Source of the DNA: a bacterium | Lineage (GTDB): Bacteria > Bacteroidota > Ignavibacteria > Kapaibacteriales > UBA2268 | Length of the DNA stretch: 46,566 bases | Direction: 5' to 3' | Assembly (NCBI GenBank): GCA_030431515.1 | Contig: JAUIIX010000020.1 | Span: 1-46,566 of the forward strand | Position numbers and translations under genes: made by a program | Shown here: positions 34,126 through 44,423 of the stretch, piece by piece | Layout: each line of letters starts with the position of its first letter | How positions within the stretch are numbered: position 1 is the stretch's first letter | The notes under the pieces: generated by a model | Database searches by the model: none | Told to the model about the DNA's origin: nothing | What the model saw: the letters and a program-made list of their open reading frames with translations, nothing else

Positions 34126-34558
34126 TTAGATTTGAGTGTCTTAACTCTTGGATTCTTGATAATTCAAAAAGGTAAACGAAAAAGCACCTTTAATATTTCA
34201 AATAAGCTCATCATTCTGAAATATAGGTTTATTTTATAAAAATATTTATGATTGAACTTCATTAGTCAAAACCATTAATAACTAACATTGATTGATGGGT
34301 ATTTTATTAAAAAAATAGTTTTAAAGTGAAAATAACTCAATTTTATTTTACAAATCAAAAAATGAAGTTATAAACTTAAATAGATTTTCCATTTTTTTAG
34401 AAAAGTTTTATCTTCAACAGAGCATATAGTTAATTAATTTCACCCTCCAACTATTGATTTTACTAAGTTCATAAAATATATTTTTTTTTATTAAAAATAA
34501 TTATTTACTTTTGAATAAATGAAAAAAAAATAATTATAAATTAATGTTCGGAGATTTT
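34126..34558. other. Divergent intergenic region opening the surface-protein island
   Basis: A 433-bp AT-rich gap between the minus-strand symporter and the first IPTL-CTERM gene. A TAnnTTTG-type -7 box (TACTTTTG, 34506-34513) lies 46 nt before the gene start on the plus strand, and GGAG is placed 6 nt before the ATG at 34559. A CATCATTCTGAAAT fragment near 34210 again resembles the GTCATTCTGA intergenic repeat. No gene or structured RNA was recognised. Confidence 0.6.
34506..34513 (+). promoter_or_regulatory. Promoter -7 element of the first IPTL-CTERM gene
   Basis: TACTTTTG matches TAnnTTTG. No TTG is present at the 19-nt spacing upstream, which is only T/A-rich there, so the promoter is weakly supported. 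Confidence 0.45.
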
Positions 34559-37177
34559 ATGAAATTGCTTTACAATGTGCTAATATTAAGTTTAGTTTTA
34601 CTTGGATTAAGTTCCATTAATCTAAATTCACAAACTTTAATAGCAAATAGGTTAGCTAATAACCAACCAAGTGGTGATATTTATGGAAGTGTAATAGTTG
34701 GTGATTATATGTATGCTTATGGAGAATTTAACTTTTTTGGGGGGACTGAGGTAGGATATGGTATTGAAGTAAGTACTAACTCAGCGACAATTAATACTGC
34801 TAATTTTCCTGAGGTAGATGGTACAGTAAATGTTGCAATCCCAGATGGTTCTGGAGGATGGTATATAGGTGGTGATTTTGAAGAAGTAGGTGGTGTATCA
34901 AGGGACTATGCAGCACACATATTATCAAATGGGACAGTTGATGCTACTTGGGATCCTGTTTTTGATAGTGATGTTCACACAATGGTGTTAGATGGTGATT
35001 ATGTTTATGTAGGCGGTGAATTTGAAGATGTTGATGGAACTACAAGAAATTATTTAGCAAAGATACATAAGACTACTGGTGTATTAGATGCTACATGGAA
35101 TCCTGATGCGAACAATGATGTTGAAAAAATATTAATTGATGGTAGTGATATTTATGTAATAGGTGGATTTAATAATATTGGTGGACAGAGTTTTGAATAT
35201 ATAGCAAAGTTAAATAATTCAAATGGTAATGCTGACGCGGCTTGGAATCCAGCACCAGATTATGATGTTGAAGATATTGTATTAGATGGTAGTTATTTGT
35301 ATTTAGTAGGTGGGTTTGAAGAAGTTGATAGTGAAGAAATTTATTATTTTGCAAGAGTAAATAAAAGTGATGGTAGTCTTGACACTGGCTTTGATTTAGA
35401 AATAGACTATAGTGTTTCAAGTATAGCTATATCTGGCGATTACATTTATATTGCTGGAGAGTTTGAAGAAGTTTTAGGTGAAGAAAGGATTAGATTAGCA
35501 AAAATACATAAAACTAATAAAACACTCGATGCTACTTGGTTACCAACTTCAGATGGAACAATAAATTTAATAGTAATAGATGGTAATGATATTTACTTGG
35601 GTGGTAGTTTCTACACAATTAAAGGAACAAAAAGACAAGGATTTGCAAAAGTTAATAATACTAATGGAAATGTTGAAGCATACAATTTAAAAATAGGAAA
35701 TAGCTATGGAGGTTCTAAAGTTAATATTTATACAATTGCTATAAATGGAACAGATATGTATATTGGTGGATATTTCAATTATGGAAATGTAAAAAATGCA
35801 ACAAGATTAGCAAAAATTAGTATGGTTGATGGAACGATAGATGAAAATTGGAATTGGGATTTTAATGGGAGTCCTATTCAAGCAATTGCAACTGATGGTA
35901 CATATATTTATGTAGCTGGTAGTAGTGGAAGTATTGCACCGGGTATAAATGCAAGATTTCCAAGAATTAATATCTTAACAGGTATTCCAGATGAAGATTG
36001 GAGTGGTTATGCAAGTAATACAATTTATGGCTTACATGTTTCAGGTGATTATATATATTTAGGTGGGGGTTTTACTCATGTTCAAGGTGAAAATGGAAAT
36101 ATTGCTAGAAATAGGGTTGCAAGAATTCAATTAAGTACAGGTAATGTTGATGCATGGAATCCAAATGCTAATAATACAGTTCAATCTTTTGTAGTTGATG
36201 GAAGTGACATATATGTCGGAGGTCAATTTACAACAATAGGTGGACAGAGTAGAGATAGACTTGCAAAACTAAATAATACTACAGGTGCAGCAGATGCTAC
36301 TTGGGACCCAGGTGCAAGTTCATCAGTAATTGCAATCGATAAAGATGATGACTATGTATATGTGGGTGGATACTTTACTACCGCTGGTGGTCAAACAAGA
36401 AATAGAGTTGCACGATTAAACAAAACAAATGGAGATGCAGATGCTACTTGGAATCCAAATCCTAATGGTACTATTAGAGATATAAAAATAAATAATGGAA
36501 ACATTTATATAGCTGGTCAATTCACAGAAGTAGGAAGTTCTACTATTTCTGGTGTTGCTAGATTAAATAATACTGATGGTAGTCCAATCCCTGGTTGGGA
36601 ACTATATGACGGTTATGATCAAGTAGTTGTTTATTCCATAGATTTTGGTGGAGATAATTTTTATATTTCGGGTAATTACTATAATAATGACCCTTATTTT
36701 GGTGAATACTTTGCTTCGAAATTTTTAAACCCAATTAGTCATACTAGTGTATTTACTTTGAAACACAATCAAATAACTCAATTAGTATTTAATATTTCTT
36801 CTGCAAATTCATCTGCAGCAGATGGTTACATAATTCTTTATAAACAAGGAAGTAGTTTTACGGGAGAACCTGTTGATGGTGGTAATTACTCAGTAGGTGG
36901 TACAATAGGAGACGCAACAATCGGTGCGATTATAACAGATGCAAATGCTATTGAAGCTACTATAAGTGGTTTAACTAAAGATGTTCAATATCATATTAAA
37001 ATATATCCATTCAATTGGGATGGTAGTGATATTACTACTGCGGAATATAAAACAGATGGTGATGTTCCATCATTAACAGTTGTAACTGTTCCAACTCTTG
37101 GAGAATGGGGAATGATTGCTTTCGTTGGATTAATGGCAATTGGTGGAGTCTTTTATGTAAGGAAAAGAATAGTATAA
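34559..37177 (+). CDS. Delta-60/DUF5122 beta-propeller protein with IPTL-CTERM sorting signal
   Basis: An 872-residue secreted protein. The signal peptide (MKLLYNVLILSLVLLGLSSI to about residue 24) precedes about 13 delta-60-type repeats of ~49 residues (patterns: DIYVGGQFTTIGGQSRDRLAKLNNTTG, D.TWNP...). A fibronectin-like beta domain follows (about 715-840; GYIILYKQGSSFTGEP, HIKIYPFNWDG), then the sorting signal VPTLGEWG, a hydrophobic stretch and VRKRIV at the very end. The ATG at 34559 with GGAG upstream is preferred over one five codons earlier. It is a likely XrtH substrate displayed on the cell surface. The motif begins VPTL rather than IPTL. Confidence 0.9.
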   Translation: MKLLYNVLILSLVLLGLSSINLNSQTLIANRLANNQPSGDIYGSVIVGDYMYAYGEFNFFGGTEVGYGIEVSTNSATINTANFPEVDGTVNVAIPDGSGGWYIGGDFEEVGGVSRDYAAHILSNGTVDATWDPVFDSDVHTMVLDGDYVYVGGEFEDVDGTTRNYLAKIHKTTGVLDATWNPDANNDVEKILIDGSDIYVIGGFNNIGGQSFEYIAKLNNSNGNADAAWNPAPDYDVEDIVLDGSYLYLVGGFEEVDSEEIYYFARVNKSDGSLDTGFDLEIDYSVSSIAISGDYIYIAGEFEEVLGEERIRLAKIHKTNKTLDATWLPTSDGTINLIVIDGNDIYLGGSFYTIKGTKRQGFAKVNNTNGNVEAYNLKIGNSYGGSKVNIYTIAINGTDMYIGGYFNYGNVKNATRLAKISMVDGTIDENWNWDFNGSPIQAIATDGTYIYVAGSSGSIAPGINARFPRINILTGIPDEDWSGYASNTIYGLHVSGDYIYLGGGFTHVQGENGNIARNRVARIQLSTGNVDAWNPNANNTVQSFVVDGSDIYVGGQFTTIGGQSRDRLAKLNNTTGAADATWDPGASSSVIAIDKDDDYVYVGGYFTTAGGQTRNRVARLNKTNGDADATWNPNPNGTIRDIKINNGNIYIAGQFTEVGSSTISGVARLNNTDGSPIPGWELYDGYDQVVVYSIDFGGDNFYISGNYYNNDPYFGEYFASKFLNPISHTSVFTLKHNQITQLVFNISSANSSAADGYIILYKQGSSFTGEPVDGGNYSVGGTIGDATIGAIITDANAIEATISGLTKDVQYHIKIYPFNWDGSDITTAEYKTDGDVPSLTVVTVPTLGEWGMIAFVGLMAIGGVFYVRKRIV

Positions 37178-37252
37178 AATTATTTAAAGTATAATTTAAT
37201 GCCTATAAGTTTTTAATTAAATTTATAGGCATTTTTTTTTGTTTTATTTTTA
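36839..37252 (+). repeat. 414-bp duplicated block, copy A (C-terminal domain, sorting signal and terminator)
   Basis: Aligned without gaps to 40007-40420 (offset 3168). Positions 36905-37092 are identical over 188 bases; about 14 differences by eye lie elsewhere, mostly in the stretch encoding the membrane part of the sorting signal. The block includes the end of the CDS, the stop codon and the complete terminator. Confidence 0.92.
37198..37240 (+). terminator. Intrinsic terminator (shared 36-nt hairpin, copy 1)
   Basis: Arms AATGCCTATAA (37198-37208) and TTATAGGCATT (37223-37233) form an 11-bp perfect stem with a 14-nt loop, followed by a run of T. It lies 21 nt after the stop codon of the 872-residue gene. 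The same 36 nt recur at 40366 and 43820 and, with four changes, inside xrtH at 43944. Confidence 0.9.
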
Positions 37253-37495: not shown

Positions 37496-40345
37496 ATGCG
37501 TAGTTTATATATATTTCTATTATTATTTTCAACTAATTATATTAGTTATTCTCAAAATAGTTTTGAGATAGATGTAAACACACTGATAGCGAATGAAACA
37601 GTTTTTTCTATAGTTAGTAATAACGCTTATACATATTTCGGTGGTTCATTTAAAATGCTAGGAAAATATACTGGTGGAGGTGATATTGTAACTTCTTCAT
37701 CTGGCACAACGAGTTTTGACAATTTATATATTGATGGGGAAGTTGAATGTTCTGTTTCTGATGGCTCAGGCGGTTGGTATATTGGAGGCGAGTTCTCACA
37801 AGTAGCTGGTGTAACAAGAAATAGAATAGCACATATAAATTCAGATGGAACGCTTGATTTGGATTGGAATCCAAACTCAAATAGCCGTGTTAAATGTATT
37901 GCCATAGGAGGAAATTTTATTTATGTTGGTGGTGATTTCAGCAATATAGGTGGACAAGCAAGAAATCATCTGGCTAAATTAAATAATACAAACGGAAGTG
38001 CTGATTTAAGTTGGAACCCAAATTCTAACAGAGGGATAGAAGCAATTGCAGTGAGTGGCAATGATATTTATGTTGGTGGTTGGTTTAGCCAAATTGGTGG
38101 ATTAGCTAAGAGTTATGTAGCAAAATTAAATAATACAAATGGAAATGCTGAGGCGAATTGGAGTCCAAACCCTGCTTCTGCTATAAGATGCATAGCTTTA
38201 AGCGGCAATGATGTTTATGTTGGAGGATATTTTTCAACTATAGGAGGGCAAACAAGGAATAAAATAGCTAAGTTAAATAACACAAATGGTGATGCTGATC
38301 CGAGTTGGAGCCCAACTGTAAGTACTGCAGTTCACTGTATATCTATTGATGGTAACAATATTTATATAGGTGGTGGGTTTACTAAAATAAATAATATTAC
38401 AATAAATAAAATAGCAAGACTTAATAATACGAACGGAGACTTTGACCCTACATGGAAGCCAGAAGCAAATGGAGATGTCAATAGTATCGCAATAAGCGGT
38501 GATGATATTTTTGTGGGTGGATATTTTTCAACTGTTGGAGGTCAGTCAAGGGCTAATGTAGCGAAGTTAAATAATACGAACGGGAATGCTGATATTAACT
38601 GGAATACAAGTGTAAGTAAAGATGTAAGAACTATTTCTGTAAATGAGAATGGTGTATTTTTAGGTGGTATTTTTACTATCCTTGGTGGGTTACAATTTAA
38701 TTATCTTGCTAGAATTAATAATGCTACTGGTAAGTTAGATGAGTCTTGGAAACCAAATCCAAATGATCTAATATACAGTATTGCTTTAAGTGAAGATGAT
38801 GTTTATACAGGTGGGAATTTCACTAATATCGGTGGAGAAAGTAGAAATAGGATTGCTAAACTAAACAACACAAATGGGAATGCTGATCCATCTTGGAATC
38901 CAAACGCTAACTCAAGTATTAGGTGTATAGCTGTTAGTGGAAACGATATTTATGTTGGAGGAATATTTACAACTATTGGAGGACAGACCAGAAGTAGAAT
39001 TGCTAAATTAAATAATTCAAATGGGAACGCTGATCCTTCTTGGAATCCAGATGCTAACAATTATGTTTTTGCTCTTGCTACAAGTAATAATGATGTTTAT
39101 GTTGGAGGTGAATTTACAAATATTGGTGGACAATCAAGAAATAATGTAGCAAAGTTAAACAACACTAATGGGAATGCTGATCCTTCTTGGAATCCAAATG
39201 CTGACCAAGAAATTAGATCCATGGCAATTAGTGGAGATGATATTTTTGTAGGTGGATCTTTTGAAGAAATTGGTGGACAAACAAGAACTAATATTGCTAA
39301 ACTAAATAATACAAATGGGAATGCTATATTAGACTGGAATTCAAATACAAATAATGATGTTTATAGTATTGCAGTAAGTGGAAATGATATTTATATTGGT
39401 GGTAATTTTTCAAATAGTGGTGGAGAAAGTAGAAATCGCATTGCTAAATTAAACAATACAAACGGTAATGCTGACGCGAATTGGAGTCCAGATGCAAATG
39501 GTACAGTTTGGGCTATTTCTATAAATAACAATAATATTTATTTTGGTGGAAGTTTTAAAAAAGTAGGAGGAAATAATTTAGAATATTTTGCGAAAATTAA
39601 TAATTTCCTTGCACCTTCAATTAGTAATCCTAATATTGTGAAAGTGTATGACAACTCTGCTACTCTGACAAGCCAAATAACCATTAATGGCTTAACTACC
39701 ACATACACTTATGAATACGGAACTTCATCTGGCAATTATTCTGCGACAACAACTTCTAAAGAAATTACAGCAAATGGAAGTGCAACGGTTGTATTAAGTG
39801 GATTAGATGCTGATGATGAATATTTTGTAAGGGTTAGGGCTATAAACACAATAGGGATTTCTTACTCAAGTGAAATAAGCTTTATAAATACGAATACTCC
39901 TCAAAATCATACTGCAACTTTTACCTTAGCGAGAAATGAAATTACACAACTAATATTTAATCATCAATCTGCCCAAAGTATTGGTGCCAGTGGATATATT
40001 ATTTTATATAAACAAGGAAGTAGTTTTACTGGAGTACCTGTTGATGGTGGTAATTACTCAGTAGGTGGTACGATAGGAGACGCAACAATCGGTGCGATTA
40101 TAACAGATGCAAATGCTATTGAAGCTACTATAAGTGGTTTAACTAAAGATGTTCAATATCATATTAAAATATATCCATTCAATTGGGATGGTAGTGATAT
40201 TACTACTGCGGAATATAAAACAGATGGTGATGTTCCATCATTAACAGTTGTAACTGTTCCTACTCTTGGAGAATGGGGAATGATGGCTTTTGTTGGGTTG
40301 ATGGCTTTTGGAGGAGTCTTTTTTGTTAGGAAAAGAATAGTATAA
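37496..40345 (+). CDS. Delta-60/DUF5122 repeat protein with FN3 and IPTL-CTERM sorting signal
   Basis: A 949-residue secreted protein. The signal peptide MRSLYIFLLLFSTNYISYSQ leads into ~12 near-identical delta-60 repeats of 49 residues (consensus NPNAN..IRCIAVSGNDIYV then GGIFTTIGGQTRNRIAKLNN then TNGNADPSW), filling about residues 95-705. A fibronectin-III-like domain (TYTYEYGTSSGNYSATTT, ~710-805) and a second beta domain (~815-920) precede VPTLGEWG, a hydrophobic segment and VRKRIV. The repeats are similar at DNA level, so copy number could vary by recombination. It is a likely XrtH substrate on the cell surface. The function of the propeller is unknown. Confidence 0.92.
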   Translation: MRSLYIFLLLFSTNYISYSQNSFEIDVNTLIANETVFSIVSNNAYTYFGGSFKMLGKYTGGGDIVTSSSGTTSFDNLYIDGEVECSVSDGSGGWYIGGEFSQVAGVTRNRIAHINSDGTLDLDWNPNSNSRVKCIAIGGNFIYVGGDFSNIGGQARNHLAKLNNTNGSADLSWNPNSNRGIEAIAVSGNDIYVGGWFSQIGGLAKSYVAKLNNTNGNAEANWSPNPASAIRCIALSGNDVYVGGYFSTIGGQTRNKIAKLNNTNGDADPSWSPTVSTAVHCISIDGNNIYIGGGFTKINNITINKIARLNNTNGDFDPTWKPEANGDVNSIAISGDDIFVGGYFSTVGGQSRANVAKLNNTNGNADINWNTSVSKDVRTISVNENGVFLGGIFTILGGLQFNYLARINNATGKLDESWKPNPNDLIYSIALSEDDVYTGGNFTNIGGESRNRIAKLNNTNGNADPSWNPNANSSIRCIAVSGNDIYVGGIFTTIGGQTRSRIAKLNNSNGNADPSWNPDANNYVFALATSNNDVYVGGEFTNIGGQSRNNVAKLNNTNGNADPSWNPNADQEIRSMAISGDDIFVGGSFEEIGGQTRTNIAKLNNTNGNAILDWNSNTNNDVYSIAVSGNDIYIGGNFSNSGGESRNRIAKLNNTNGNADANWSPDANGTVWAISINNNNIYFGGSFKKVGGNNLEYFAKINNFLAPSISNPNIVKVYDNSATLTSQITINGLTTTYTYEYGTSSGNYSATTTSKEITANGSATVVLSGLDADDEYFVRVRAINTIGISYSSEISFINTNTPQNHTATFTLARNEITQLIFNHQSAQSIGASGYIILYKQGSSFTGVPVDGGNYSVGGTIGDATIGAIITDANAIEATISGLTKDVQYHIKIYPFNWDGSDITTAEYKTDGDVPSLTVVTVPTLGEWGMMAFVGLMAFGGVFFVRKRIV
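37790..39600 (+). repeat. 147-bp DNA tandem repeat array inside the 949-residue gene
   Basis: The word gctgatcc/gctgat recurs at 38882, 39029 and 39176, spaced exactly 147 bp (49 codons), within long stretches of matching sequence (aaattaaataatacaaatgg). About 12 units cover most of the gene; outer units are more diverged. Limits are approximate. Confidence 0.85.
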
Positions 40346-40420
40346 AATTATTTAAAGTATAATTTAATGCCTATAAGTTTTTAATTAAATTTATAGGCAT
40401 TTTTTTTTGTTTTATTTTTA
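40007..40420 (+). repeat. 414-bp duplicated block, copy B
   Basis: Counterpart of 36839-37252. It includes the beta domain, the sorting signal, the stop codon and the terminator hairpin (40366-40401) of the 949-residue gene. Confidence 0.92.
40366..40409 (+). terminator. Intrinsic terminator (shared 36-nt hairpin, copy 2)
   Basis: Arms AATGCCTATAA (40366-40376) and TTATAGGCATT (40391-40401), 14-nt loop, then a run of T. It lies 21 nt after the stop codon of the 949-residue gene and is identical to copy 1. Confidence 0.9.
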
Positions 40421-40580: not shown

Positions 40581-41822
40581 ATGGTTCAAATATACTTATT
40601 AGTATTAGTTTTATCTATTAATTGCTTTTCGCAAAACACATCTGGTAGTTGGACACAATTAAATCCACCAACCAAACCAAGTATTAGAGATGCAAGCATC
40701 TTAACTCAAGTATCAGATTCAGAATTAATTCTTTTTGGAGGATATGATGGTTCAAATATTGACGAAACTTGGATATTTAACAATACATCAAGCAGTTGGA
40801 CACAATTAAATCCACCAACCAAACCAAGTGCTAGGCGTGGCAGTATGATGGCAAGAATCTCTAATGATGAGGTTTTGCTTTTTGGAGGTAAAGACGCAGA
40901 TTATAATGATGAAACTTGGATTTTTAATAATAGTTCTGGTAGTTGGACTCAATTATTTCCACCTAGTTCTCCTGACGCTATACAAACTGGAATGATGTCA
41001 AGAATATCTGATGATGAGGTTTTACTTTTTGGTGGATATGATGATAATTATATTAATGAAACATGGATATTTAACAATACATCAGGAAGTTGGACTCAAT
41101 TAAGCCCACAAATTAAACCAATTGGAAGACGTAGTTGTGTAATGTCGCGAATATCAGATGATGAAGTTGTTCTTTTTGGAGGGTATGATGGCTCAACAAA
41201 TTTAGATGACACTTGGATTTTTAATAATATTTCTGGAAGTTGGACTCAATTAAGTCCTCCAAGCGAACCTAGTGCTAGAAGGGGCGCAATGATGTCTAGA
41301 ATATCCGATGATGGCATTTTGCTTTTCGGGGGATATGATGGGGCTAGAAGTAATGAAACATGGATTTTTAATATACTTGATACAGAACCAACTACACATT
41401 CAAATACATTCGCGCAAATAGGTGAATCTAATAATTCAATTACTTTTAGTTTTCAATCATTAAATGCAATTTCTGCAGATGGCTACTTAATTTTAAAATC
41501 TACATCTAATATTGAAAATCCTGTTGATGCAACTAGTTATTCTGTTGATGATAACATTGGATCTACTCTAGTCGTTGGTAAAATAACTGATGTTCAGGCA
41601 ACAAATTTTGTTTTAACTAATCAACAATTTCAAAAATCTTATACCTTTAGATTAGTTCCTTTCAATGTAGGTACTAAACCTATTACTACAAACTACTTTA
41701 ATACAAATGCACCAACTATAAATGCTTACACTATTCCAACTCTTGGAGAATGGGGAATGATGGCTTTTGTTGGTTTGATGGCATTTGCTGGAGTGTTTTA
41801 CATTAAGAATAGAATAGTGTAA
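40581..41822 (+). CDS. Kelch-like repeat protein with IPTL-CTERM sorting signal
   Basis: A 413-residue secreted protein. The signal peptide is MVQIYLLVLVLSINCFSQ. About five Kelch/galactose-oxidase-type repeats of ~48 residues follow (SARRGSMMARISNDEVLLFG, then DETWIFNN.SGSWTQLNPP; residues ~25-265). The DEVLLFGG and TWIFN motifs are the Kelch hallmarks. A beta domain (~275-385; ADGYLILKSTSNIENPVD) comes before IPTLGEWG, a hydrophobic stretch and KNRIV. The final basic tail is IKNRIV instead of VRKRIV. Unlike its neighbours it lacks the shared terminator, so transcription may read into the next gene. Confidence 0.9.
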   Translation: MVQIYLLVLVLSINCFSQNTSGSWTQLNPPTKPSIRDASILTQVSDSELILFGGYDGSNIDETWIFNNTSSSWTQLNPPTKPSARRGSMMARISNDEVLLFGGKDADYNDETWIFNNSSGSWTQLFPPSSPDAIQTGMMSRISDDEVLLFGGYDDNYINETWIFNNTSGSWTQLSPQIKPIGRRSCVMSRISDDEVVLFGGYDGSTNLDDTWIFNNISGSWTQLSPPSEPSARRGAMMSRISDDGILLFGGYDGARSNETWIFNILDTEPTTHSNTFAQIGESNNSITFSFQSLNAISADGYLILKSTSNIENPVDATSYSVDDNIGSTLVVGKITDVQATNFVLTNQQFQKSYTFRLVPFNVGTKPITTNYFNTNAPTINAYTIPTLGEWGMMAFVGLMAFAGVFYIKNRIV

Positions 41823-41906: not shown

Positions 41907-41983
41907 CAAACTGGTTAAAAAAAAGACTATAGATTTCAATAAATAGTCATATTTACTTATACATAAAAAAAATTGAGGGATAA

Positions 41984-43798
41984 ATGAAAAACATATATTT
42001 TTTAATCGTGCTTTTAGTATGCCTAAGCTCTGGCTATTGTTATGAGCACGAAACAAACTTCCCAGAAACAAATGGTAGAGTAACTGCCTTTGTTCGACAG
42101 GGGGATTATATTTATCTTGGAGGAGATTTCACTGTAATTGGTGGTGAGTCCATTAATAGGTTAGCTCGGGTGAATGTCAACACGAATACAGTTGATAATA
42201 CTTGGTCACCAAATGTCAATGATGATATATTTGATCTATTTTCCGATGGGACTAATATATATTTTTTTGGAAACTTTACAAGCGTTGGTGGTACTACAAG
42301 AAATAGAGCCGCAAAGGTTGCTATCTCAGATGCTTCACTTGATGCCACATTTAATCCTAACTTAAATAATACTGTACTCGGAACAGATTTTGACGGCACA
42401 TACTTCTATATTGGAGGAAATTTTACAACTGTTGGTGGCACGTCAAGATCAAACTTAGCTAAAATTTCTACTGATGGATCTCTTCAAGCTGGAAACCCAG
42501 CACCAAATAATATAGTGAGAGCAGTTGAAGTAAGCGGAAGCGATTTATATATAGGTGGACAATTTACATCTGTAGATGGTCAGGGAAGATTGAGATTAGC
42601 TAAAATCAATGCAACATCGATGGCTTTAGATGGTACATTTAATCCTGGAGCAAATAATATAGTTTCTGCCCTTGTTATACATGATGGTGATTTGTATGTT
42701 GGAGGTGATCAAACTGAAGTTGATGGGCAAGCAAAAACTTATTTGGCAAGGGTAGATGCCTCAGATGGTAGTTTAGACAATTCTTTTGAGTCAACTGTAT
42801 CTGGAGGAATGGTTAGAGCAATGGATGTATATAACTCTAAATTAGCAATAGTTGGAGACTTTACAAGTATAGATGGTCAAGTTAGATCTTATAATGCACT
42901 TGTAGATTTTATAGATGGATCTGTCGATACAGATTTTATTTTCAATGGTGATGCAAGAAATAGAGCGGTTTATACGGATGGTAGTAATTTATATATAGGT
43001 GGTGAAATGCTTACCTTAAATGGCACTAGTTCAGATTTTGTTGCAAGAATAACAAATTCAACACCTCCTGAGGCTTATGCTCCCTTAATTAGTCAAACTA
43101 ATACAACATCAGCGTCATTTACTTCAGAAATATTTTCTAATAATGAATCTACTACAGTTACTTTTGAATATGGAACAGTAACAGGAGATTATTCTGCGAC
43201 GACTACAAATCAAACAATAAGTGGAGGAAGTACAACAACTACTGTTAGTTTTAATAATACAGGATTAGATGATAATGAACAATACTTTGTTAGAGCAAGA
43301 GCAGAGAATAGCACTAGTTTCTCCTATTCAACTGAAACATCATTTTGGACATTAACAGACGAGCCAGAGACACATACAAACTCCTTTGCACAAGTCGGAG
43401 AAGCAAACACCTCAATTTCTTTTAGTTTTCAATCATTGAATACAATCACTGCTGATGGGTATGTCTTATTAAGGTCAACAGCAAATATCGAAAACCCTGT
43501 TGATGGTAGTGGTTATTCAGTTGACGACAATTTAGGGTCAACAGTTGTAGTAGGTAAAATAACTGATGCAAACACAACAGAGTTTGTATTAAATAACCAA
43601 CAATTTCAAAAATCTTATACATTCAAATTAGTACCTTTCAATGTAGGTGATGACCCTGCAACAACTAATTATTTTATAACAGATGCACCAACTATAAATG
43701 CTTATACTATTCCTACATTAGGCGAATGGGGAATGATGGCTTTTGTTGGTTTGATGGCAATTGGTGGAGTATTTTTTGTTAGGAAAAGGATAGTATAA
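41984..43798 (+). CDS. Delta-60/DUF5122 beta-propeller protein with FN3 and IPTL-CTERM sorting signal
   Basis: A 604-residue secreted protein. The signal peptide (MKNIYFLIVLLVCLSSGYC) precedes about seven delta-60-type repeats (RVTAFVRQGDYIYLGGDFTV, SDLYIGGQFTSVDGQGRLRLAKIN, ~25-365). A fibronectin-III-like domain (TFEYGTVTGDYSATTT, ~370-460) and a terminal beta domain (~465-575) like that of the Kelch protein follow. It ends with IPTLGEWG, a hydrophobic segment and VRKRIV. It shares its C-terminal domain type with the preceding gene but its propeller type with the two genes before that, so it looks like a mosaic of island modules. xrtH follows directly. Confidence 0.91.
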   Translation: MKNIYFLIVLLVCLSSGYCYEHETNFPETNGRVTAFVRQGDYIYLGGDFTVIGGESINRLARVNVNTNTVDNTWSPNVNDDIFDLFSDGTNIYFFGNFTSVGGTTRNRAAKVAISDASLDATFNPNLNNTVLGTDFDGTYFYIGGNFTTVGGTSRSNLAKISTDGSLQAGNPAPNNIVRAVEVSGSDLYIGGQFTSVDGQGRLRLAKINATSMALDGTFNPGANNIVSALVIHDGDLYVGGDQTEVDGQAKTYLARVDASDGSLDNSFESTVSGGMVRAMDVYNSKLAIVGDFTSIDGQVRSYNALVDFIDGSVDTDFIFNGDARNRAVYTDGSNLYIGGEMLTLNGTSSDFVARITNSTPPEAYAPLISQTNTTSASFTSEIFSNNESTTVTFEYGTVTGDYSATTTNQTISGGSTTTTVSFNNTGLDDNEQYFVRARAENSTSFSYSTETSFWTLTDEPETHTNSFAQVGEANTSISFSFQSLNTITADGYVLLRSTANIENPVDGSGYSVDDNLGSTVVVGKITDANTTEFVLNNQQFQKSYTFKLVPFNVGDDPATTNYFITDAPTINAYTIPTLGEWGMMAFVGLMAIGGVFFVRKRIV

Positions 43799-43819: not shown

Positions 43820-43862
43820 AATGCCTATAAGTTTTTAATTAAATTTATAGGCATTTTTTTTA
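43820..43862 (+). terminator. Intrinsic terminator (shared 36-nt hairpin, copy 3)
   Basis: Arms AATGCCTATAA (43820-43830) and TTATAGGCATT (43845-43855), 14-nt loop, then T-rich sequence. It separates the 604-residue gene from xrtH. The 36 nt are identical to copies 1 and 2, although the flanking bases differ. Confidence 0.9.
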
Positions 43863-43870
43863 TTTTACTA

Positions 43871-43900
43871 TTGTGTTTTGAATGATTTTATTTATTTTTG
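43871..43900 (+). promoter_or_regulatory. Promoter of xrtH
   Basis: TTG (43871-43873), 19-nt spacer, TATTTTTG (43893-43900), directly after the terminator. The predicted leader is only about 20 nt. The sorting enzyme therefore seems to be transcribed independently of its upstream substrate. Confidence 0.65.
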
Positions 43901-43925
43901 TATAATTTAAAATAATAATTATAAT

Positions 43926-44423
43926 ATGAATCAAAAAGATAAAAATGCTTATAAGTTTTTAGTTAAGTTTATAGGTATTATTGCATTATATTATTTGATA
44001 ATAGCAGTTTTTGGAACTGATTATTTATCTCCTTATTTGAATATATCAGCTTGGATTTCAAGCGGTATATTAAGTTTGTTTACTAATAGTGCTTATAGTG
44101 TTGGACATCAAATTATTGGTGATGGAGTCTCTTTATCTCTTTCTTATGGTTGTGACGGAACAGATCAGTTTATTGTTTTTATTGCTGGAGTACTATCATT
44201 TCCTTCCTCATTAAATAAAAAATTAATTGGAATTTCTTCTGGCTTAGTTGCAATTTACTTTTTGAATTTATTTAGAATAATTGGACTATTCTTTGTTGCT
44301 AATAATGATTTCTCCTTATTTGAAACTTTCCATGTAGTAGTCTTCCCTATTATATTTATTATTATTTCATTGATATTTTGGTATATTTGGATTAAATGGG
44401 ATTATGATGAAAAAGTATCTTAA
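43926..44423 (+). CDS. xrtH: Exosortase H (IPTL-CTERM-specific sorting transpeptidase/protease)
   Basis: A 165-residue integral membrane protein with about five helices. The exosortase triad is present: Cys76 in LSYGCDGTDQFIVF, Arg117 in YFLNLFRIIGLF and His136 in FETFHVVVFP. Small size and the GC(D/N)G..-IV-F motif fit the XrtH branch, which pairs with IPTL-CTERM proteins. Four such proteins are encoded just upstream. The enzyme should cleave the C-terminal signal on the outer face of the inner membrane and hand the protein to an anchoring step. Codons 7-18 coincide with a hairpin nearly identical to the terminators of the substrate genes. The start at 43926 is the first ATG after the promoter. 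Confidence 0.9.
   Translation: MNQKDKNAYKFLVKFIGIIALYYLIIAVFGTDYLSPYLNISAWISSGILSLFTNSAYSVGHQIIGDGVSLSLSYGCDGTDQFIVFIAGVLSFPSSLNKKLIGISSGLVAIYFLNLFRIIGLFFVANNDFSLFETFHVVVFPIIFIIISLIFWYIWIKWDYDEKVS
43944..43979 (+). other. Terminator-like hairpin inside the xrtH coding sequence
   Basis: Arms AATGCTTATAA (43944-43954) and TTATAGGTATT (43969-43979) enclose a 14-nt loop. 32 of 36 bases equal the three terminators. The changed arm bases create G-U wobbles, so all 11 pairs remain possible in RNA. There is no trailing T run, so termination here is not expected. It encodes NAYKFLVKFIGI (codons 7-18). Confidence 0.9.

Follow-up and report, generated by a model that had tools for sequence, protein, structure and literature searches.

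A terminator-like hairpin behind IPTL-CTERM genes that probably derives from the 5' coding end of a neighboring exosortase gene

Introduction

The origin of new intrinsic terminators is hard to trace because terminator sequences diverge fast. The window analyzed here, a 46,566-nucleotide stretch of bacterial DNA, raises the question in a compact form: a 36-nt terminator-like hairpin follows genes for presumed exosortase substrates with IPTL-CTERM tails, and a near copy of it lies in frame within the 5' coding end of the exosortase gene, xrtH. Which of the two gave rise to the other, and does the shared hairpin link the expression of the enzyme to that of its substrates? The probable source, a fold-prone coding segment, is still 124 bases away, and it can be compared base by base with the derived terminators.

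Results

The 36-mer AATGCCTATAAGTTTTTAATTAAATTTATAGGCATT is present in identical form at 37198, 40366, and 43820, in each case past the stop codon of an IPTL-CTERM gene (Table 1), and a search of the genome revealed a fourth identical copy at G000:C19:129754, behind an orphan IPTL-CTERM tail. The segment within xrtH (43944-43979) has the same base at 32 of 36 positions, and the four differences are all transitions. Sequence comparison thus confirmed the first-pass annotation, which had described three identical stem-loops behind IPTL-CTERM genes and a near copy with four substitutions at codons 7 to 18 of xrtH. This reading frame is secure, since the ATG at 43926 is the only ATG, GTG, or TTG start of the xrtH open frame ahead of the segment, so that 43944 begins codon 7. 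Read in the xrtH frame, the terminator gives NAYKFLIKFIGI, with a single amino-acid difference, I in the terminator and V in xrtH. Genome-wide, the half-site AATGCYTATAAGTT had five exact matches and the full 36-mer pattern, with up to three mismatches, also had five; in both searches these were the four terminators and xrtH.

Table 1. Features of the window that bear on the shared hairpin
Feature	Position	Strand	Remarks
IPTL-CTERM gene with shared hairpin	34544..37177	+	TIGR04174
Terminator-like hairpin, 36 nt	37198..37233	+	behind IPTL-CTERM gene 34544-37177; seven T directly after
IPTL-CTERM gene with shared hairpin	37496..40345	+	TIGR04174
Terminator-like hairpin, identical	40366..40401	+	behind IPTL-CTERM gene 37496-40345; seven T directly after
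IPTL-CTERM gene without shared hairpin	40581..41822	+	TIGR04174; counter-example within the cluster
IPTL-CTERM gene with shared hairpin	41984..43798	+	TIGR04174; directly upstream of xrtH
Terminator-like hairpin, 36 nt	43820..43855	+	behind IPTL-CTERM gene adjoining xrtH; six T directly after
Promoter-like motif, TTG-N19-TATTTTTG	43871..43900	+	between terminator and xrtH
xrtH-like exosortase gene, 165 aa	43926..44423	+	TIGR04177 78.4 bits; TIGR04178 49.6 bits
xrtH codons 7-18, NAYKFLVKFIGI	43944..43979	+	likely origin of the terminator hairpin; folds at -8.6 kcal/mol, lacks a T tract

The best-scoring family of the XrtH protein was exosortase H (TIGR04177), although its 78.4 bits are below the curated cut-off of 86, and the 49.6 bits obtained with the exosortase/archaeosortase family (TIGR04178) exceed the curated cut-off of 23. 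The four IPTL-CTERM proteins of the window matched TIGR04174 at their C-termini with 25.8 to 26.3 bits (curated cut-off, 20.5). A second exosortase of the same family is encoded on another contig (L023, G000:C42:75829-76296) and is 31% identical to the XrtH of the window.

Similarity of the xrtH segment to other DNA was assessed on both strands of 323,093 bases (28.6% G+C) out of the 3,548,371-base genome, a non-random sample that includes the window and stretches chosen around the C19, C42, and C133 loci. The xrtH 36-mer had four matches with four mismatches, all of them the terminators, followed by six with 11 mismatches. Four of these six were the complementary strands of the terminators and two were unrelated, the best unrelated match sharing 25 of 36 bases.

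The similarity was then compared with that of the flanking DNA. Downstream of the 43820 hairpin, homology to xrtH gave no signal (786 of 2000 dinucleotide shuffles were as good), and four of 198 other genes reached the xrtH level (five of 199 when xrtH is counted). Upstream, a borderline trace was found around GTATAATTTAA, with 147 of 2000 dinucleotide shuffles as good; when the first two hairpin bases were included, 149 of 5000 and 137 of 5000 shuffles were as good. None of 195 other genes reached the level of this trace (one of 196 with xrtH counted), most of them being less AT-rich than the xrtH side, which has 10% G+C. At 37198 there was no upstream homology to xrtH (960 of 2000 shuffles as good). 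The claim that similarity stops sharply at the hairpin is therefore largely right: it holds downstream and is qualified upstream by the borderline trace. If real, this trace indicates 43820 as the founder copy, a role that is possible for this hairpin. A tandem duplication visible in the flanks was considered and rejected. As flank homology is absent downstream and borderline upstream, a duplication is hardly visible outside the hairpin; either the flanks decayed while the hairpin was kept, or the copy was little longer than 36 bases.

The IPTL tail upstream of xrtH carries AAATGCTTATA (codons NAY) at 43696-43706, an 11-mer that is also present in xrtH, and the three NAY sites (43696-43706, 43820, and 43944) are spaced by 123 and 124 bases. 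The 11-mer turns up at two further, unrelated sites of the 323-kb sample, and its link to xrtH may be due to chance.

Folded with a 10-nt tail, the copies at 37198 and 43820 formed a 15-bp stem at -16.4 kcal/mol, and none of 200 shuffles was as stable. Seven, seven, and six T directly follow the stem in the window copies at 37198, 40366, and 43820, and only three in the C19 copy, which by its T tract is predicted to be a poor terminator. Copies on the IPTL-CTERM side combine a stable stem-loop, a T tract, and a position past a stop codon, the features of an intrinsic terminator, and they would be expected to terminate transcription. The xrtH segment alone folded into the same shape (Table 1), again with none of 200 shuffles as stable. 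Of its four differences, three fall in the 15-bp stem and give G-U pairs in the predicted fold and one lies in the loop. The first-pass annotation was right that the hairpin survives its substitutions by G-U pairing, and it counted two arm changes where there are three. After the stem, xrtH goes on as ATTGCATTATATT with no T tract, and the xrtH copy is therefore not a terminator.

Several results indicate that the fold within xrtH comes with the protein that it encodes. In the segment, the stretch that encodes N-A-Y-K is nearly the complement of the one that encodes F-I-G-I. When synonymous versions of the segment were drawn at random by the codon usage of the genome carrying the window, 2,846 of 20,000 folded at least as well, so that the hairpin is a consequence of the peptide and not of tuned codons. 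Codon choice is ordinary, and selection on the xrtH codons for the hairpin is not needed. With its surroundings included, the fold was also ordinary: shuffles matched its stability in 13 of 200 cases over 66 nt and in 71 of 200 over 101 nt. The xrtH hairpin is best read as a by-product of the peptide, and any function of its own would be hypothetical. Such a fold is nevertheless uncommon: four of 198 other ORFs were as stable at the same codons (xrtH left out of the null), and among 25 related segments none was equally stable (range, 0.0 to -6.6 kcal/mol). Few ORFs fold as stably, and the xrtH segment is thus suitable raw material for a terminator; hardly any gene matches xrtH at these codons, so a good hairpin must already have been present when the copy was made.

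The direction of copying was addressed with a profile of the 12 segment columns built from 24 relatives that were aligned without either exosortase of the window's genome. On this profile the terminator peptide scored 14.4 bits. Eight of the 291,715 open windows of 12 residues in the sampled DNA reached that value: xrtH, each of the four terminators, a shifted window lying in one of them, and two that are unrelated. Random hairpins with the same arm and loop composition reached the terminator score in one of 197,175 open frames. An earlier profile, from an alignment including xrtH, gave 13 of 291,715 windows and none of 56,865 random-hairpin frames. The xrtH segment itself scored 16.1 bits, within the leave-one-out range of its relatives (2.6 to 25.6 bits for the 20 of 24 that were scored, the other four being gapped). 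In the alignment including xrtH, the segment was free of gaps in all 25 homologues, and in the alignment without xrtH a two-residue gap fell within it in four of 24 relatives. At the one residue that differs, the V of xrtH, which is also present in L010 and L017, fits the family better (13.4 bits in total versus 11.75 with the terminator I), in weak agreement with a direction from xrtH to terminator. The best relative (G031) shares six of the 12 segment residues with XrtH, compared with 0.44 overall, and over the 11 best relatives the identity within the segment is 45 of 132 residues (0.34), slightly below the 0.34 to 0.44 of the whole protein.

Because the terminator frame fits the N-terminus of exosortase relatives, xrtH is most likely the donor of the copy that turned terminator; on the simplest reading of these alignments, the coding segment would be old and the terminators copies of it. 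The first-pass annotation had left the direction open between two alternatives. The fit to the relatives' profile supports a derivation of the terminators from an exosortase 5' end, with the direction itself inferred, and disfavors a gain of the segment by xrtH from a terminator, since the frame would then match exosortases by luck and the segment is no insertion relative to homologues.

The genome encodes seven IPTL-CTERM tails, one of them the orphan, and the hairpin follows four of the seven and is absent from three. The tails preceding the 37198 and 40366 hairpins are identical at 206 of 207 bases from about -300 to -93 relative to the stop but at just 83 of 93 across the final stretch of coding sequence, a mosaic that suggests a recent duplication or conversion between genes 34544-37177 and 37496-40345. 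The tails at 43820 and C19 are identical at 88 of the last 93 coding bases and at 79 of 207 further in. There are two tail types, VTVPTLGEWG and NAYTIPTLGEWG, and each has members both with and without the hairpin. As the tails are mosaic and both types occur with and without it, a spread of the hairpin by recombination among IPTL gene ends fits these data.

Other hairpins and tails of this genome deserve mention. The orphan tail, about 40 codons plus the hairpin (L053 12670-12830, G000:C19:129629-129789), follows an unrelated ORF, past stop codons. No intact gene precedes it, and it has the appearance of a gene remnant or of a recombination footprint. By eye, a hairpin at 41922-41957 of the window, after gene 40581-41822, has its T tract on the minus strand, an unexpected orientation. 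Another repeated terminator-like hairpin has six copies on the C5 contig (L043 at 5087, 8059, 9710, 15722, 16416, and 19444), one of them apparently in the opposite orientation. With this six-copy family, repeated terminator-like hairpins are not special in the window's genome.

A promoter-like motif lies between the 43820 hairpin and xrtH (Table 1), and its form presumably resembles a Bacteroidota promoter. Motifs of the type TTG-N17-21-TAnnTTTG are enriched ahead of genes in this genome: they were found within 120 bases upstream of 24 of 199 ORFs including xrtH (23 of the 198 others), inside the coding sequence for three of 199, and on the other strand of the upstream region for one of 199. 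Given the position of this motif, transcription of xrtH is probably separate from that of the upstream gene. When the terminator was cofolded with the xrtH segment, the pair gained 3.2 kcal/mol over the separate hairpins, and the self-dimers gained 2.0 and 2.4 kcal/mol. Pairing in trans between the two mRNAs was rejected on this computed gain, which points to no special affinity. The proposal that the shared arms pair between mRNAs and couple the exosortase to its substrates thus found no backing in the small cofolding gain or in the promoter-like motif of xrtH's own, and regulatory coupling is unsupported.

Of 123 genomes of the order, 23 (the window's own among them) encode relatives of XrtH, as do 20 of 391 genomes of a class sample at E ≤ 1e-15. 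The best match was 47% identical, with no closer relative among the genomes searched. Family members close to XrtH have the pattern h-K-F-h-h-h-F-h-G-h-I-A-h-Y-Y around the segment. Neither of the other two genomes in the genus, one of which is 76% complete, has the 36-mer when up to three mismatches are allowed. A degenerate pattern had no exact match in a wider genome-contig collection, which possibly does not include the window's own genome, and a protein scan of that collection for XrtH gave no relative, the scan being weak enough to miss relatives found in the other collection. One genome of the genus (G020, 76% complete) has six IPTL-CTERM matches and no match to the XrtH of the window.

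The loci of these relatives were also searched for sharing between xrtH and nearby DNA. In the 300 bases after the stop of 20 relatives' IPTL tails (from 26 of 35 IPTL matches, six having failed the motif-and-stop filter), nothing was closer to the terminator 36-mer than 15 mismatches. At 25 other xrtH loci, 24 from other genomes and one the second copy of the window's genome, setting each xrtH 5' end against as much as 1.5 kb of its own flanks left 10 to 16 of the 36 positions mismatched. Comparison of xrtH 5' ends with the IPTL loci of the same genomes gave 10 to 15 mismatches, apart from two zeros (G110 and G111) that result from an overlap of the two loci on a single contig. In these two genomes, of family f9, an IPTL gene stands beside xrtH, a different hairpin follows the IPTL stop by eye, and xrtH shares no sequence with its flanks. 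Among the relatives found, KFL-type residues thus occur without an equally stable fold, and sequence is shared neither between xrtH and its flanks nor between xrtH and IPTL loci. This argues against a general mechanism, and the event is best read, from these comparisons, as a local accident.

Discussion

We consider it probable that a copy of the 5' coding end of xrtH gave rise to the terminators, which then spread with the IPTL-CTERM tails, the xrtH hairpin being a by-product. In the proposed course of events, codons 7 to 18 of xrtH, fold-prone through their amino-acid sequence because the N-A-Y-K and F-I-G-I codons nearly complement each other, would have been duplicated, the new copy landing most likely in the gap that separates xrtH from the IPTL-CTERM gene next to it upstream. 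In the non-coding copy, the three G-U pairs would have become Watson-Crick pairs, and the hairpin with the T tract after it would have made a putative intrinsic terminator, which may then have moved to further IPTL-CTERM genes along with recombining gene tails. We infer the duplication, the order of the copies, the route of spread, and terminator activity from the sequences themselves. Several results weigh against this account: flank homology is missing downstream and borderline upstream, none of the relatives shows an intermediate and the two other genomes of the genus lack the sequence, the segment is slightly less conserved than the protein as a whole and is gapped in four of 24 relatives, the hairpin must have folded well before it was copied, and the C19 copy has a short T tract.

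The reverse direction is unlikely. A terminator copy would have been written into the xrtH 5' end by gene conversion or insertion, with its frame tolerated as an N-terminal segment. The terminator does exist in four identical copies against one in xrtH, and its perfect stem is the more refined of the two; common codons (GCT and GGT) result from two of the differences in xrtH, and the fit of a replacing terminator to an exosortase N-terminus would itself be selected. This direction nevertheless needs a lucky match to exosortase N-termini, such as two unrelated windows of 291,715 and one of 197,175 random hairpin frames achieve; the segment is no insertion relative to homologues, its identity to relatives is just slightly below that of the whole protein, and the third xrtH difference leads to a rarer codon, AAG (15%). 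Functional coupling, under which both copies of the hairpin would be retained to let the mRNAs of exosortase and substrates pair, or to give them a common RNA-binding factor or nuclease site, appears very improbable. That all three stem differences retain pairing as G-U and that the loop is identical across the four terminators would suit it, against which stand the emergence of the hairpin from the peptide with ordinary codons, the small gain of the heterodimer over the self-dimers, the ordinary fold of xrtH in its surroundings, the three of seven IPTL-CTERM tails without the hairpin, and the lack of any comparably stable fold among the 25 related segments. We give slightly less credence still to the narrower idea that the hairpin in xrtH and at substrate gene ends is one shared RNA signal, e.g., a nuclease or protein site; if true, it would tie the amount of the sorting enzyme to that of substrate mRNA.

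There is little to recommend independent landing in both places of a member of a repeat family, such as an uptake-sequence-like motif, a REP, or an RPE-like palindrome. Such families do occur in terminators and within genes, according to PMC2346458 and PMC10969869, but the half-site and full pattern each recovered the same five matches genome-wide, and the wider contig collection, which may lack the window's own genome, held no exact match to the degenerate pattern. With five matches only, a high-copy repeat family or uptake motif in the window's genome is refuted. Least credible of all is chance convergence of an AT-rich terminator and an AT-rich coding segment. The sample is indeed poor in G+C and both sequences are self-complementary, but chance is ruled out as the explanation by the four mismatches of the terminators against 11 for the best unrelated match. 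Furthermore, ORF copies within the sample were sought for 44 other entries in its list of terminator-like hairpins, some of them a single site counted on each strand; among the matches listed, a single entry agreed with an ORF, at 5 mismatches in 25.

On the best reading, in which a local accident turned coding DNA from xrtH into a terminator, this locus offers a modest worked example of a coding sequence put to new use as a regulatory element. It reveals no new control system. No published terminator traced to a coding 5' end was found among the titles and abstract openings listed for the literature searched, and that literature gave nothing on an exosortase together with IPTL-CTERM or XrtH.

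Among known systems, the closest are intrinsic (Rho-independent) terminators, which the copies on the IPTL side resemble in their perfect stem, T tract, and position just past stop codons; what differs is that the sequence here can be traced to the coding 5' end of a neighboring gene. With Rickettsia palindromic elements (RPEs) and other MITEs, too, a palindrome is present outside genes as well as in frame within a coding sequence. RPEs, however, are numerous inserted elements of about 150 bp, as given in PMC10969869, whereas the element here has 36 nt and five copies, four of them behind IPTL tails, and the gene looks like its source; insertion of such elements is recognized by an extra segment relative to homologues, and the xrtH segment is ungapped in 25 homologues. 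The DNA uptake sequences of Neisseria and Pasteurellaceae share the occurrence of a motif inside genes and in terminator-like hairpins. According to PMC2346458, they lie within genes and, as inverted pairs, in terminator-like hairpins, with a contentious role as terminators, and they number hundreds to thousands per genome, in contrast to the five copies found here. Finally, the exosortase H/IPTL-CTERM sorting system (TIGR04177 and TIGR04174) is represented here by an XrtH-like enzyme and its presumed substrates. As a protein system it is ordinary, and the finding lies in the DNA shared between the enzyme gene and the ends of the substrate genes.
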